This document shows, piece after piece, positions 1-40,642 of a DNA stretch of 40,642 nt. This DNA is from a virus: the IMG/VR virus record IMGVR_UViG_3300035070_001610, positions 1 through 40,642 of that record; one strand, written 5' to 3'. The notes below the pieces were generated by a model. The model was given only the letters and a program-made list of their open reading frames with translations, made no database searches and was not told the DNA's origin. Position numbers and translations under genes: made by a program. How positions within the stretch are numbered: the first letter of the stretch is position 1; every line of letters begins with the position of its first letter.

Positions 1-106
1 CGAGATAGCCTCAGGCTGCTATATCGAGTGCAACGAGATAGCCTCAGGCTGCTATATCGAGTGCAACGAGATAGCCTTATGCTGCTACAGGCTGCTATAC
101 TCGAGG
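1..106. repeat. Left-end 33-bp tandem hairpin repeats
   Basis: A 33-base unit repeats head to tail: a partial copy at 1-13, full copies at 14-46 and 47-79, then a degenerate copy to about 106. Each unit holds an imperfect inverted repeat, gctatatcg / cgagatagc (one mismatch in nine), around a 7-base loop, agtgcaa. The same unit closes the window at 40532-40642. Bases 1-58 are identical to 40585-40642. T7-type genomes have direct terminal repeats flanked by short repeat arrays, so this is probably the terminus. The copy number may have been altered by assembly. Confidence 0.9.
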
Positions 107-426
107 TTTTTATTGTCTCCATCCCCTTTATTTATTGGATTCTACTAACTTTTTTCATTTATTTTCATTTATTTTCATCAAGGGGGCTTGCAATCAATCT
201 TGGCCTGATCTATCTCTACCTCATCGGAAGCAAACAAGGCGCTACCGGATACGGGGACCCACTAGCCCAAGAGCATACAACAAGTGGCGGCGTAAGTGCT
301 CCGATCAATCCACACGGCGAGGTGTGGCGGCAATCCGAGAAAACAGAGCTAGTCCAGCGGTAACTGGGTATTTACTTTTTAGACAAGCACATCAAGTCGA
401 TGTGTTTCTTAAAGGAGTATTTACAA
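107..426. other. Left-end leader without a convincing gene
   Basis: No open frame here has a ribosome binding site and credible protein. An A/T-rich 10-base repeat (attttcattt) occurs almost three times at 151-179. A 6-bp stem with a 6-base loop lies at 310-327 (ccacac / gtgtgg). Early genes of T7-like phages are read from host promoters at this end. TTGCAA near 187 with TATCTC 17 bases downstream is a poor sigma70 match, and I do not call a promoter. Strong Shine-Dalgarno sequences begin only at about 410. Confidence 0.5.
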
Positions 427-3001: not shown

Positions 3002-3373
3002 ATGCTAGCCGCTCACTGTCTAGCCTTGGCAATCTATTATGAGGCTCGTAACCAGCCTATTGATGGGCAGCTGGCCGTTGCTCAAGTTGTGATGAATCGT
3101 GTTGAGTCTAAACGGTATCCCAATGATGTTTGTGGTGTTGTGTGGCAAAACAAGCAATTCTCCTTCACACATGATGGCCTCCCTGAGCGTCCTAAGCATC
3201 ATTCATGGGGGGATATACAGGGGATGGCAGAGATGGTGCTTTCTGGGGCCTCTCACGGCCTCTCAGGGCTATCTGCAACACACTACCACGCTAACTACGT
3301 CCAACCCTACTGGGTAAACTCAATGAAGCTTGTCGGAAAGATAGGCGATCACATATTTTACATTGAAAACTGA
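3002..3373 (+). CDS. SleB/CwlJ-type cell wall hydrolase
   Basis: A 123-residue protein consisting only of the hydrolase_2 (SleB/CwlJ) domain. The family cleaves peptidoglycan glycan strands. The signature is visible: ALAIYYEARNQ with the presumed catalytic Glu14, GQLAVAQVVMNRV, YPNDVCGVVWQ and QFSF. I chose ATG 3002 because GAAAGGA lies 7 bases before it. There is no signal peptide or membrane segment, so it needs a holin or release by another route to reach the wall. It sits in the early region, far from the late lysis cassette that already carries a GH24 endolysin. An alternative is a role in virion entry or wall remodelling. Confidence 0.85.
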   Translation: MLAAHCLALAIYYEARNQPIDGQLAVAQVVMNRVESKRYPNDVCGVVWQNKQFSFTHDGLPERPKHHSWGDIQGMAEMVLSGASHGLSGLSATHYHANYVQPYWVNSMKLVGKIGDHIFYIEN

Positions 3374-5925: not shown

Positions 5926-6168
5926 ATGTTTACTGTAGAAATGGACACAGCTGAGGGTGAAAGTAGTACAATCACAACCCTAGATGAAACAGGAACCTTC
6001 CCAGATGTTGAGGTGAATATATTCGATGATATGGTGGTAATTCGCCAGATCAAAGATGTTGAGAAGGATATTGTGTTAGATATGGTGGTTATAAGCCCCG
6101 AGCAATGGAGTGATATTCTAGCAGCAATGCAGATGCCAGCTGGGGTGTATAAAAAGGAGTTAGTATGA
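5926..6168 (+). CDS. Acidic early protein, unknown
   Basis: An 80-residue, strongly acidic protein. Its pattern is beta strands (VEVNIFDDMVVIRQI and IVLDMVVISPEQW) followed by a helix. It starts 4 bases after the preceding stop, and its TGA overlaps the RNA polymerase ATG (ATGA). Such placement hints that it is made in step with the polymerase; an acidic partner or regulator would be possible but is unproven. Confidence 0.55.
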   Translation: MFTVEMDTAEGESSTITTLDETGTFPDVEVNIFDDMVVIRQIKDVEKDIVLDMVVISPEQWSDILAAMQMPAGVYKKELV

Positions 6169-8699
6169 CAACACAGACTAGGATGGAGCGGCAACTAGAG
6201 TTGGAAATGCGGGCTAATGATTACTCGCATGACCGTTTAATGAAAATCATCCAAAAGAGAACCGCGTCAGGTAATGCAGATGAGTTACTAGAGGGTCGTT
6301 TGATCCTACTACACAGCATTGACCGACTCTCAGAGAAACTCAAGGAGTATTTTGACGCCCCGCTACGGGGTAAAGCTGGCTCAGTTCGCAATATCCTAGC
6401 TGAGGAGTTTGAGACTAGTACAAAGGACCTAGCCTATGTGATCTTAGTGACCATGGTTCGATATATCTCTCAGGAGAATACAGTGCCTGTGTCGCATATG
6501 ATTAGGACACTGAATAAAAACATCCACGACAGTATTCTAGTAAGGAGGCTAGATAGAGAAGCTGCTACGCTGGGGTCGTTTGTTGATAGACGGTTCCGTA
6601 AGAGGTCCGCTGAGTTTCGTCAAACCGAGAAACTAAAGATCGTCCAGCGTCAGGACAGTATGAAGGAAAGCAACCTAACACCTCTAACGGCTTACCTAGG
6701 TGCTTCTTTACTTGATATTGTAATGAAGAGTGGGATCAACATCATCGAACTCAAGGTCATTAGGCAGAAAGATAAGACCACCCGCTACATCGTCTACACA
6801 GATGAGTGTTACCGAATGGTCCTACAGAGCCGCAGTATCCTCCTAGAGGATTACAGGAGATATCCTATTCTCGTGGTAAAGCCTAAGGACTGGACAACAT
6901 ATAAAGGCAGTGGAGGTTACTACACAACTTCGATCTATAAGCTGTCTATGATCAAGGCCCGCACCGAGACTCGAGGTATCCTACAGCGCTACTTCAATAC
7001 TCACGAAACTGAGAACTTAGCGACAATCCTAAACACTCTGCAAGCTACCCCATGGAGAATCAACCAGCGGGTGTTTGAGGTGATGGATTATGTGTTCACC
7101 AACAACATCGAGGACCCTAACTACCCTAGGCACAATCCTCGACTAGTCGGTCGGTTACCTCTCAACGCTACTATGGAGCCTGAGGATTACATCAACCCTC
7201 ACAACTATGGTAATATTCATAAAGATGGCCCTAAGAAAGGCCTACCTACCGAGAAGGCTATGTGGCGTAAGCGTTTTGCCGACATTGAGACCCAGAGGGA
7301 TATCTGTATCTCTAATAATGGTAGGGCTCTTATGCAGAATATGATCATGGCTAACGCTAGAGAGTATCTAAACGAGGAGAAACTCTACTTCAGCTACCAA
7401 TACGATAGCAGGGGTCGTATCTATCCCATCCAACAACACTTACAGCCCCAAGGCTCAGGTAACATCAAGTCGTTGCTTGAGTTTGCTACAGGCAGTAAGA
7501 TCGAAACTGAGGAACAGCATCGCTGGTTCTTGATCCACGGTGCTAACACTTACGGGTTCGATAAGTTGTTGTATGAAGATCGGATCGCTAAGATCATGGA
7601 ACTTGAAAGCGACATCCTAGCTGCTGCTGATGACCCTATGGCTAACAGGCAGTTCTGGGGTGGTTGTGATGATCCTTATATGTTTCTCGCATGGTGTTTT
7701 GAGTACGCAGACTACAAGCGTGACCCTAAAGCCTTCGAAAGTCACATACCTATCGCCTTAGATGCCACCTGTAGCGGCATACAGCTTTACTCAGGCCTCT
7801 TACGGGATGCTGAGGGGGCTAGGTCCGTAAACGTCATTGGGGACACCAGAGAGGATGTTTACCAGAAGGTCGCTGATCGTGTTAATCAATACCTCGAGGA
7901 AGGTAACTACCAGAAACTATTCTACTACACTGACAAAGCAGGTGATGATCACATCCTAGACGTCGTTCCAATGGCTAACAGCTTCAAAGGGAAGGTCACT
8001 AGGAGCCTCGTTAAACGTAATGTGATGACTCAACCATACTCAGTAACTAAGCGGGGTATGTATGATCAAATCATTGACGAGCTCACAGAAGTGGAGAATA
8101 ATAATAAGAAGTTCTGGGTAGGTGATATGTGGGCGGCTGCGAAGCTGTTATCAGACCTCAACGACAGGGCGATTCAAGACATCGTTAAAGGAGCTAGGGT
8201 CGGTCAGGAGTACCTTAAGAAGGTCACGCAAGACCTTGTAAAGAGAGGAGAACATGTTGCTTACAGAACACCCCTAACAAACTTTCCAGTAGTCCAGCGA
8301 ATTGGCAACAGGAAGGAGGAAAGAGTCCGCACACCAATCGGTAGACTCACAATCCGAACACCAACAGATACTCTAGACAAACTTAGAATGGGTAACGGTA
8401 TTGCACCTAACTTTATTCACAGTTTGGATGCAGCTTTGTTGGCAACTACGGTTCTAAAACTAGCTGATGAGGGCTGTGAGAATTTTCACATGATCCATGA
8501 CAGTTATGGTGTTCCTATTGGTCAAGTAGAGAACTTGAATAAGCTCGTCAGAGAGACTTTTGTAGAGCTATTTGAGTGTGATCCACTATATAGATTTGTG
8601 GACACAGTTAATCACAACTTCGAGCACAGACCTGAGGACATTATGCTGAATACTCTAAATCTAGAGGAAGTCATTGATTCTAAATACATTTTCTCTTAA
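6165..8699 (+). CDS. T7-type single-subunit RNA polymerase
   Basis: An 844-residue DNA-dependent RNA polymerase (T7 gp1 has 883). The conserved elements are present in order: DxRGR at 414-418, motif A with catalytic D533 in LDATCSGIQ, motif B with K617 in KRNVMTQPY, and motif C with catalytic D779 in HDSYG. It would take over transcription of middle and late genes and prime replication at its promoters. The start overlaps the previous stop and has AAAAAGGAG 5 bases upstream. Three near-identical promoter-like 27-mers elsewhere in the window are its probable targets, one of them beginning two bases after this gene. Confidence 0.98.
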   Translation: MTTQTRMERQLELEMRANDYSHDRLMKIIQKRTASGNADELLEGRLILLHSIDRLSEKLKEYFDAPLRGKAGSVRNILAEEFETSTKDLAYVILVTMVRYISQENTVPVSHMIRTLNKNIHDSILVRRLDREAATLGSFVDRRFRKRSAEFRQTEKLKIVQRQDSMKESNLTPLTAYLGASLLDIVMKSGINIIELKVIRQKDKTTRYIVYTDECYRMVLQSRSILLEDYRRYPILVVKPKDWTTYKGSGGYYTTSIYKLSMIKARTETRGILQRYFNTHETENLATILNTLQATPWRINQRVFEVMDYVFTNNIEDPNYPRHNPRLVGRLPLNATMEPEDYINPHNYGNIHKDGPKKGLPTEKAMWRKRFADIETQRDICISNNGRALMQNMIMANAREYLNEEKLYFSYQYDSRGRIYPIQQHLQPQGSGNIKSLLEFATGSKIETEEQHRWFLIHGANTYGFDKLLYEDRIAKIMELESDILAAADDPMANRQFWGGCDDPYMFLAWCFEYADYKRDPKAFESHIPIALDATCSGIQLYSGLLRDAEGARSVNVIGDTREDVYQKVADRVNQYLEEGNYQKLFYYTDKAGDDHILDVVPMANSFKGKVTRSLVKRNVMTQPYSVTKRGMYDQIIDELTEVENNNKKFWVGDMWAAAKLLSDLNDRAIQDIVKGARVGQEYLKKVTQDLVKRGEHVAYRTPLTNFPVVQRIGNRKEERVRTPIGRLTIRTPTDTLDKLRMGNGIAPNFIHSLDAALLATTVLKLADEGCENFHMIHDSYGVPIGQVENLNKLVRETFVELFECDPLYRFVDTVNHNFEHRPEDIMLNTLNLEEVIDSKYIFS

Positions 8700-8700
8700 A

Positions 8701-8727
8701 TGCCCCTTGAAAGCCCTCTATAGATAG
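8701..8727 (+). promoter_or_regulatory. Phage RNA polymerase promoter, copy 1
   Basis: A 27-base element with CCCCTTGAAAG followed, three bases on, by CTCTATAGATAG. It matches copies at 18369-18395 and 39651-39677. The CTATAG core with initiation at G is what T7 and SP6 promoters have. It lies immediately after the RNA polymerase gene and upstream of the single-strand-binding protein, the position of T7 origin promoters. It should drive the replication genes and could prime replication. Confidence 0.8.
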
Positions 8728-8753
8728 AACCCAATTAAGACTAATAGAACCCT

Positions 8754-8881
8754 CTTAAAGAATCTTAAAGACTTCTTAAAGACTTCTTAAAGACTTCTAT
8801 AATAATTATTATTATAATAACTATAATAGTAATAACTAAAGATTCTTAAAGATTCTTAAAGAGTCTTAAAGATACCCAAAG
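8754..8881. other. Candidate replication origin: phased CTTAAAG array
   Basis: CTTAAAG occurs exactly at 8754, 8764, 8775 and 8786, and again at 8845, 8855 and 8865, all in the same direction and 10-11 bases apart. Variants ACTAAAG (8835) and CCCAAAG (8875) extend the second group. Between the groups is a 14-bp A/T palindrome, ataataattattat, at 8799-8812. The region is non-coding, A/T-rich and downstream of a phage promoter, as in the T7 primary origin. Helical phasing suggests cooperative protein binding on one face of the DNA. Confidence 0.6.
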
Positions 8882-8899
8882 CCTAAAAGGAGACAACTA

Positions 8900-9532
8900 A
8901 TGGCTATTACTAAACCCTTCGCAGTTAAAGGCACTAACGCAACCTCACCGAAAGGTAAGGCTCTGTGGTGTAAATTCAAAGAACCTGACACAAAGTTCAA
9001 CGCTAAAGGCGAACTCTCTACTGACTTGGTTTGTGATCCTAATGATCCAGCGGTCCAAGCTTACGTCGAGAAACTAGAGAACCTCGTTGATATCGCTTAC
9101 AACGAGACTTGTGAGTCCCTAGGGCCAGCACGAGCCCGTGAGGTTCGTAAGAGCCCAGTCTACAAAGAGGAATTTGATGCTAGTGGTAACCCAACTGGTA
9201 ACATCATTTTCAAATACAAACTCAAAGACCTCACAGACCGACGAGATCGTGGTGATGCTACGGAAGTTCTCGTAGTAGATGCTAAACGTAACCGCCTTGG
9301 TAAAGATGCCCCTCTCGTAGGCAATGGTTCAACTATCCGCGTAGTCAGCTATGCAAACCCTTACTACATGGCTTCTACAAAGATCGTAGGCCTTAGCCAC
9401 ATCTGGTCTAAGATGCAGATCATCGAGCTTGTAGAGTTCTCTGGAGGCGGTAGTGATGACTTTGAAGACGAAGATGGTTTTATTGACGAAGCTGCTGACG
9501 AAGTATCTGACTTCGCTTCAGATGATTTTTAA
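8900..9532 (+). CDS. Single-stranded DNA-binding protein, gp2.5-like
   Basis: A 210-residue protein of T7 gp2.5 type. The family binds single-stranded DNA and organises the phage replisome. The body has the expected alternating basic and aromatic sequence (GKALWCKFKEPDTKFN, FKYKLKDL). The last 35 residues are very acidic and end in DDF, the hallmark tail that contacts polymerase and helicase. AAAAGGAGA lies before the ATG. It is the first gene after the promoter and heptamer array, so it should be strongly expressed. Confidence 0.92.
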   Translation: MAITKPFAVKGTNATSPKGKALWCKFKEPDTKFNAKGELSTDLVCDPNDPAVQAYVEKLENLVDIAYNETCESLGPARAREVRKSPVYKEEFDASGNPTGNIIFKYKLKDLTDRRDRGDATEVLVVDAKRNRLGKDAPLVGNGSTIRVVSYANPYYMASTKIVGLSHIWSKMQIIELVEFSGGGSDDFEDEDGFIDEAADEVSDFASDDF

Positions 9533-17197: not shown

Positions 17198-17623
17198 ATG
17201 AGTATTCTTAAAGCTTACCGAGCCGACTTCGCCACACGCGATGCCGATGATATCCTGACCTCGTTTCAGAACACACTGGAGAAGGCTCTAGACCGAGGTG
17301 ATCTAGGCCGAGACGAAGTCGTAACCCTCGTAGCATTCTATGCAGAGTTTGGGGTCGCCTACCTTCGCCAAGTAGCTTATACCTTCCGTGATCCTGAGGG
17401 GTCGCAGCAGAGTATGAAGTTTATGAATAGTGTGATTGCTGAAGCGGTTCACGAAGCTGGCCTTCATTATTACAACAAAGAACACGGCTACTCACTAATT
17501 GATAAAGCAGTTCAAGAAGCTTTGGACAATAATGGGTCCGTATCGGTTGATGTTATCAATCATATTATTGACGATATCGAAATTACTTACATCGAAGAAG
17601 AAGAAACAGAAGTGGAACACTAA
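17198..17623 (+). CDS. Replication-region protein, unknown
   Basis: A 141-residue acidic, mainly helical protein with TAGGAGA before the ATG. The acidic C-terminus (YIEEEETEVEH) is notable. It lies between two exonuclease genes and abuts the second with no gap, so a helper in DNA degradation or replication would fit. No catalytic motif is visible. Confidence 0.6.
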   Translation: MSILKAYRADFATRDADDILTSFQNTLEKALDRGDLGRDEVVTLVAFYAEFGVAYLRQVAYTFRDPEGSQQSMKFMNSVIAEAVHEAGLHYYNKEHGYSLIDKAVQEALDNNGSVSVDVINHIIDDIEITYIEEEETEVEH

Positions 17624-18391
17624 ATGATTGCCCTCGTTGATGCGGATAGCCTATTATATAAAGTTGGATTTGCCATCGAGGACAAGGTGGTTTGGAATGA
17701 ACAGGAAGTTGCTCTAGGGACCGAAGAGCCAGAAGTCGAATACTACACAGACCTCGAGGTTTGTAAGGAGACTTTTGACAGGTTCGTAGGTAACATCCTG
17801 TTCGCCACTGACTGCGACAAAGCGTTTCTTGTGTTCTCAGGTGGAGGTAACTTTCGCGATGCAATCCCAACATCGTATAAAGAGAATCGAACTAACAACC
17901 GCAAACCCCTAGGGTATGCAGAGCTTCGTGAGTACGCGGAGACAACATATGACTCACACACCCCACAAGGAATGGAAGCAGATGATTATGTTGTACACCT
18001 TAAGACTAAGGAGTCCGAAGAATACATCTTATGTGCTATTGATAAGGACGTCCTGTACCAGACTGTAGGGACACACTACAACTACGGTCGTGATGAGGAA
18101 GTCACAGTTAACGACTTCGAAGCTATTTGGTATGCGTACTATCAGGTCCTCACTGGGGACACTTCCGATGGCTACAAAGGAGCTAAGAATGTCGGACCAG
18201 TGAAGGCTAAGAAAATTCTCGAGGAGTGTGAAAACGAACAAGAATTGTGGCAAGCTGTAGTAGAGACATATGAGAGCCGAGGACAGACCGAAGAAGAGGC
18301 TCTACACACTATGCAGTTGGCTAATATGCATCAATTCGATGGTGAAAACATAGTATTATGGACACCTCCGCCCCTTGAAAGACCCCTATAG
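17624..18391 (+). CDS. 5'-3' exonuclease, gp6-like
   Basis: A 255-residue FEN/5'-3' exonuclease comparable to T7 gp6 (300 residues). Metal ligands are in LVDADSLLY (D6, D8), GMEADDYV and CAIDKD. The helix-three-turn-helix DNA-binding element reads GDTSDGYKGAKNVGPVKAKKIL. Such enzymes remove RNA primers and degrade host DNA. Its final codons lie inside the second phage promoter: the TAG stop at 18389-18391 is the TAG of the CTATAG core. Confidence 0.93.
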   Translation: MIALVDADSLLYKVGFAIEDKVVWNEQEVALGTEEPEVEYYTDLEVCKETFDRFVGNILFATDCDKAFLVFSGGGNFRDAIPTSYKENRTNNRKPLGYAELREYAETTYDSHTPQGMEADDYVVHLKTKESEEYILCAIDKDVLYQTVGTHYNYGRDEEVTVNDFEAIWYAYYQVLTGDTSDGYKGAKNVGPVKAKKILEECENEQELWQAVVETYESRGQTEEEALHTMQLANMHQFDGENIVLWTPPPLERPL

Positions 18392-18395
18392 AAGG
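18369..18395 (+). promoter_or_regulatory. Phage RNA polymerase promoter, copy 2 (late)
   Basis: CCCCTTGAAAG followed by ACCCCTATAGAAGG. It differs from copy 1 in only a few positions across 27 bases. It overlaps the end of the exonuclease gene and lies 11 bases upstream of the first late gene, where T7 also has a late promoter (before gene 6.5). It should drive the structural genes. Confidence 0.82.
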
Positions 18396-39650: not shown

Positions 39651-39677
39651 TGCCCTTTGAAAGCCCCCTATAGAGGG
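39651..39677 (+). promoter_or_regulatory. Phage RNA polymerase promoter, copy 3 (right end)
   Basis: CCCTTTGAAAG followed by CCCCCTATAGAGGG. It matches the copies at 8701 and 18369. It stands 18 bases after the terL stop with no gene downstream, the position of the T7 phiOR promoter, which works in replication and terminus processing rather than gene expression. Confidence 0.8.
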
Positions 39678-40490: not shown

Positions 40491-40514
40491 AGGGACCTAG
40501 AATAGGGTCCTTTT
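40491..40514 (+). terminator. Terminator-like hairpin before the terminal repeats
   Basis: gggacc (from 40492) pairs with gggtcc (ending 40510) as a 5-bp stem extended by two A-T pairs past a bulged G. It is followed by tttt. It is the only hairpin here with a T run and would stop transcripts from the right-end promoter before the terminus. Confidence 0.6.
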
Positions 40515-40531
40515 GCAGCGGTTTAACTGCA

Positions 40532-40642
40532 GGCTGCTATATCGAGTGCAACGAGATAGCCTCAAGCTGCTATATCGAGTGCAACGAGATAGCCTCAGGC
40601 TGCTATATCGAGTGCAACGAGATAGCCTCAGGCTGCTATATC
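40532..40642. repeat. Right-end 33-bp tandem hairpin repeats
   Basis: Three full 33-base units at 40532, 40565 and 40598 and a partial one from 40631. They match the left-end units; one copy has a single change (g to a at 40565). The last 58 bases equal bases 1-58. The ends are therefore either one physical repeat seen twice, or direct terminal repeats shortened by assembly. Confidence 0.9.

Follow-up and report, generated by a model that had tools for sequence, protein, structure and literature searches.

We place the main transcription-primed replication origin of this phage, with a probability of roughly 0.6, in the non-coding gap between its RNA polymerase and single-stranded DNA-binding protein genes, where repeated CTTAAAG boxes would act as a double-stranded DNA element that works from one face of the helix and marks the origin promoter. 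This reading comes from sequence comparison. The boxes, their spacing, their conservation and their confinement to promoter and origin sites were observed in two distant phage groups. Throughout, the window means the whole stretch of 40,642 nucleotides that was analyzed, an IMG/VR virus record.

The seven-box array and its surroundings

Seven exact CTTAAAG copies lie on the plus strand at 8754, 8764, 8775, 8786, 8845, 8855 and 8865, with spacings of 10, 11 and 11 bp in the left block, 59 bp across the core, and 10 and 10 bp in the right block. They occupy a 200-bp non-coding gap (8700-8899, GC 28%). The relevant features of the window are:

6165..8699, plus strand: single-subunit phage RNA polymerase (RNAP) gene, 844 aa (phrog_414, E = 6.8e-185)
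8709..8724, plus strand: putative phage promoter, GAAAGCCCTCTATAGA, its motif found elsewhere only at 18377 and 39659
8754..8792, plus strand: left array of four CTTAAAG boxes, an array kept in relatives
8797..8841, plus strand: A/T core with a weak CTATAAT (8797), the 14-bp palindrome ATAATAATTATTAT (8799-8812) and ACTAAAG (8835)
8845..8871, plus strand: right array of three CTTAAAG boxes, exact matches
8875..8881, plus strand: degenerate box CCCAAAG, in the 10-bp register
8900..9532, plus strand: gp2.5-like ssDNA-binding protein (SSB) gene, 210 aa (phrog_112, E = 2.4e-23)
18377..18392, plus strand: second putative phage promoter, a copy of the motif at the phi6.5 position, after the exonuclease gene
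39659..39674, plus strand: third putative phage promoter, a copy of the motif at the phiOR position, after the terminase gene

The first-pass annotation had described four boxes to the left and three to the right of a 14-bp palindrome, two degenerate copies that keep the rhythm (ACTAAAG at 8835 and CCCAAAG at 8875), and a non-coding site after the RNA polymerase gene and a promoter; positions and spacings agreed exactly with this description. Both the regularity and the copy number of the array are far above chance. Dinucleotide shuffles of the gap (n = 20,000) contained a mean of 0.13 CTTAAAG copies and never more than three, and random placement of seven boxes gave at least five of six spacings of 10 or 11 bp with P of about 1e-5. 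Over the whole window, 21 copies were counted where 6.75 would be expected. Helical phase is lost across the 59 bp that span the A/T core, which we counted against the origin reading.

The first box begins 30 bp downstream of the putative promoter. This promoter motif is present in exactly three copies in the window: one in the RNAP-SSB gap, a second where the exonuclease gene ends and a third past the terminase gene. A relative (G001) keeps it at the three homologous places. Only the copy at 8709 is accompanied by a box array; the promoters at 18377 and 39659 have none, and this too was counted against the origin reading.

Family scans of the window proteins, several of which are unassigned, returned no initiator or helix-turn-helix family and no candidate for a box-binding protein. 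The conserved protein encoded at 17198-17623 was considered as a binder and set aside, as it is acidic and has no family match; it is kept in most relatives examined and occupies the genome position of T7 gp5.5-5.9. By eye, no T7-type primase site was seen inside the array, although the primase of this phage may have a different preference; a TTGTC complement lies at 8892-8896, outside the array. Both ends of the window (1-110 and 40500-40642) lie in one tandem repeat with a unit of about 33 bp, GGCTGCTATATCGAGTGCAACGAGATAGCCTCA, and because the repeat is shared, the record probably closes there or carries a terminal repeat.

Distribution of the boxes among phages

The ribonucleotide reductase DNA of the window was closest to that of Roseobacter and Lentibacter phages, at only about 74% identity. 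The two nearest RNAP relatives (L001, 82%; L002, 79%) carry arrays in the RNAP-SSB gap, as do several relatives at 50-60% RNAP identity, the arrays often flanking an A/T core left and right. The core itself is near-identical in L001 and differs in L002. Across these gaps the box consensus is CTTWAAG, with CTTAAAG and CTTTAAG mixed in L001, L002, L025 and others. Therefore, the common direction noted in the first-pass annotation, which is true of all seven boxes in the window, does not characterize the element. The linkers differ (ATG, AAG, ATT, AGT, ACTT and others) around a constant box. Among relatives picked by protein and not by box pattern, neighboring exact boxes were spaced by 10 bp in 39 cases, 11 bp in 11, 12 bp in none, 13-15 bp in three and 20-21 bp in six. 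Aligning the gap in relatives, a check proposed beforehand, thus found the 10-11 bp spacing to persist, but not in every relative: L003, L009, L010 and L013 have no gap array, which counts against the origin reading.

In 29 related records we tallied 40 exact pairs (exact boxes with 3-4-bp linkers), and 22 fell in the RNAP-SSB gap, 12 at the terminase site, whether immediately past the large terminase gene or at a greater distance from it on that side, and 6 after the exonuclease gene. The post-exonuclease arrays (phi6.5 position) include those of G012, G014, L152 and L173, and the post-terminase arrays (phiOR position) those of G015, G021, G004 and G005. The three promoter copies of the window coincide with these three array sites. 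Where arrays were inspected together with their flanks, promoter-like sequence was mostly present within about 60 bp upstream. In Lauvirus lau218 (L110), the RNAP gene and the genes for SSB and primase point in opposite directions, and the 550-bp A/T-rich divergent region has no CTTWAAG array.

In the whole T7 genome, pairs of CTT(W0-2)AAG boxes 8-12 bp apart number three, against 0.01 per genome in Markov sequences, and they occur only at phiOL (416, 426) and just after phi1.1B (5930, 5942, 5952; CTTAAG, CTTTAAG, CTTAAG). These are the two best-known regions of replication start in T7, and the window array is an enlarged form of their pattern. Each site has a further box past an A/T stretch, at 466 for phiOL and at 5999 for the primary origin. 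The contrast that the first-pass annotation had drawn with T7, whose similar heptamers it placed at the genome ends, therefore does not hold, as T7 bears phased boxes of the CTTWAAG type at its own origin. T7 phiOR has no phased pair, which was counted against the origin reading. The A/T-rich cluster of the T7 origin includes a GGGTC site that is unused for priming (PMC12839067), and its complement, GACCC, sits between the second and third T7 boxes.

The pattern extends to T7-like phages. In 74 distinct loci anchored on T7-like RNAPs, which are not phylogenetically independent and include several near-identical Klebsiella phages or T7 strains, the density of pairs was 3.30 per kb within 250 bp downstream of the RNAP gene and 0.040 per kb in the remaining sequence. 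Of the 31 pairs in that remaining sequence, 29 sit in the left-end region, 3.2-6.6 kb upstream of the RNAP stop. Among 37 T7-like records, 43 of 47 exact pairs fell at the phiOL, phi1.1, phi6.5 or phiOR positions, mostly assigned by distance only. The complete genomes G077 and G080 have exact pairs at these four promoter sites and nowhere else. T7-type promoters precede the boxes in extracted sequence of G077, G080, G078 and G082, whose phi6.5 pairs lie downstream of a T7 exonuclease homologue, and stand immediately 5' of the boxes in L278-L283. Outside the four usual places, G089 and G090 have CTTTAAG pairs near 27 kb, close to the phi13 position. Pseudomonas phage phiIBB-PF7A (L150) carries boxes and an A/T stretch (3023-3065) upstream of the RNAP gene, not downstream, and these boxes follow sequence that matches the published promoter consensus of that phage.

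A scan for triplets of phased boxes, run without bias over 2.9 million viral contigs, returned 47 stretches, of which a large share adjoin RNAP, SSB, exonuclease or terminase genes of T7-like phages and a few are unrelated microsatellites (e.g., L164). The RNAPs of the two box-bearing groups are only about 27-28% identical, indicating that the element is either old and often lost or arose twice. Gap boxes are absent from the distant Autographiviridae ICP3, JELG-KS1, HTVC168P, CRP-403, BB8, RHEph01 and phiKT, which counts against the origin reading, and T7-like groups that have no non-coding gap after RNAP have no boxes there. Phased CTTWAAG arrays were also seen in L161, L184, L193 and L160, with no RNAP family match in any of the four; L160 and L161 each encode a helicase and a DNA polymerase of the T7-like kind, and L161 has its array within a long divergent non-coding region. 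If these phages truly lack an RNAP, the boxes would be independent of it.

The origin reading and its alternatives

T7 has about 17 phage promoters, few of which act as origins; phiOR and phi6.5 are among those that do. We know of no settled account of what separates its origin promoters from ordinary ones. In T7 itself the motif is confined to the primary origin and phiOL; T7-like relatives have it at phi6.5 and phiOR as well. Since phased boxes mark the T7 primary origin together with a few promoters, repeatedly the same ones, and are missing from the others, an origin role is the best single explanation of their distribution. Independent support comes from T7 adapted to an RNAP of altered specificity, in which 5 of 16 promoters had changed (phiOL, phi1.5, phi2.5, phi6.5 and phiOR; PMC6171733), three of them box sites in T7 or its relatives. 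The proposal of a likely origin in the first-pass annotation is thereby strongly supported by comparison (T7 phi1.1B and phiOL, the four T7-like sites and the gap of the relatives), and from this comparison we infer origin function, protein binding and strand opening at the gap of the window.

The T7 primary origin is transcription-primed, the RNAP transcript being extended by DNA polymerase (PMC5997990). By analogy, the RNAP of the window phage would start at the putative promoter at 8709 and read across the left boxes and on into the A/T core, where the transcript would prime DNA synthesis. The CTTWAAG boxes would set this origin promoter apart from an ordinary one. Their one-turn spacing points to action on double-stranded DNA, through a bound protein or through bending, and suggests cooperative protein binding. 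Placed at one-turn intervals to the left and right of the core, the boxes would most likely hold a protein of the host or of the core replication machinery, bend the DNA, or both, so that the A/T core could open and the primer be retained. Against this, purified T7 RNAP and DNA polymerase are known to start at the T7 primary origin with no dedicated box-binding protein.

More broadly, and at somewhat less than even odds, CTTWAAG boxes in 10-12 bp phase could be the so far unrecognized sequence feature by which certain promoters of single-subunit RNAPs become origins throughout the T7-like phages; the protein that reads them would be one of replication or of the host, not yet linked to this role. 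The boxes may be part of the reason that DNA copying begins at some phage promoters and not at others, and the enlarged arrays of the marine phage group offer a strong bait for the binder. No paper within reach of a literature search, which excluded most T7 origin papers and older ones especially, was found to describe the motif.

The boxes might instead act by structure only, as easily bent and melted TpA-centered DNA (A/T at 10-bp steps and G/C out of phase with it) that cheapens origin opening or wrapping while its sequence goes unread. The 10-11 bp rhythm, the tolerance of either orientation and the A/T-rich surroundings (GC 28%) agree with this. Yet the exact CTTWAAG sequence, outer C and G included, recurs in phages with RNAPs as distant as those of the two groups, and exact boxes outnumber degenerate in-register boxes by 70 to 29 in 20 regions, the register having been seeded by exact boxes; we consider a purely structural role unlikely. 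More doubtful still is an element of the leader RNA, either a translation enhancer near the ribosome site or a hairpin in which the left array pairs with the right. Single CTTTAAG boxes do stand upstream of ribosome sites in several T7 leaders, gap arrays have a ribosome site and start codon downstream, and the leader of the window folds better than its shuffles (z = -3.7 to -4.0). The enhancer was rejected since neither T7 phiOL nor any of the nine post-terminase arrays checked is followed by a ribosome site and start codon. A hairpin was rejected as the common denominator, with z-scores spread from -0.1 to -4.5 and unremarkable at T7 phi1.1B (-0.8), phiOL (-0.1) and L012 (-1.0). Many arrays, moreover, have a single orientation and pair poorly, and RNA pairing does not need a 10-11 bp spacing.

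Slightly less probable again is a signal for transcription, genome entry or packaging, in which the boxes would make RNAP pause or load as the DNA enters, or would label the DNA ends for terminase. Some arrays do lie near genome ends (phiOL, phiOR) besides the internal ones, and phiOL is thought to serve genome entry (PMC6171733), but in the nearest relatives the largest arrays sit inside the genome, between RNAP and SSB, and those at the phi6.5 position are internal as well. Neutral growth of a repeat by slippage, already disfavored, would account for the identical units of some arrays (L185, L152); it is very improbable given linkers that differ within and between phages around a kept box, and positions that are conserved across distant groups.

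Comparison with known systems

Iteron origins, such as the lambda O sites and plasmid Rep sites, likewise place direct repeats next to an A/T-rich segment, and the window array consists of regular repeats in that setting. The likeness is one of working principle only: the window boxes are shorter and free in orientation, an RNAP promoter is part of the unit, and no dedicated initiator gene was found among the window proteins scanned.

The CCTAAAG arrays that flank the T7 terminal repeat have a heptamer one base off CTTAAAG. They differ in spacing (13, 25-26, 19 and 24 bp) and in lying at genome ends; the window array has CTTAAAG, is internal and is spaced by 10-11 bp, not about 13 bp. An identity of the two was rejected on spacing, which at the T7 left end (L146, 175-332) runs mostly in steps of 13 or 26 bp, not a whole helical turn. 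This CCTAAAG run directly precedes phiOL with its phased CTTAAAG boxes. phiOL itself shares the layout of the window, with a promoter, CTTAAAG-aga-CTTAAAAG, an A/T stretch and another CTTAAAG, and differs in being a genome-end site with only two phased boxes.

The closest counterpart is the T7 primary origin, which Saito et al. in 1980 reportedly described as phi1.1A/phi1.1B plus an A/T-rich cluster. The window has two blocks with seven exact boxes in place of CTTAAG, CTTTAAG and CTTAAG, one putative promoter in place of two, and SSB as the next gene in place of gene 1.1. Like a T7-type origin, its gap is A/T-rich and lies downstream of the RNAP gene with a putative promoter upstream. In both phages the site directly follows the RNAP gene and runs from a promoter through CTTWAAG-type boxes 10-12 bp apart into an A/T core and on to another box.
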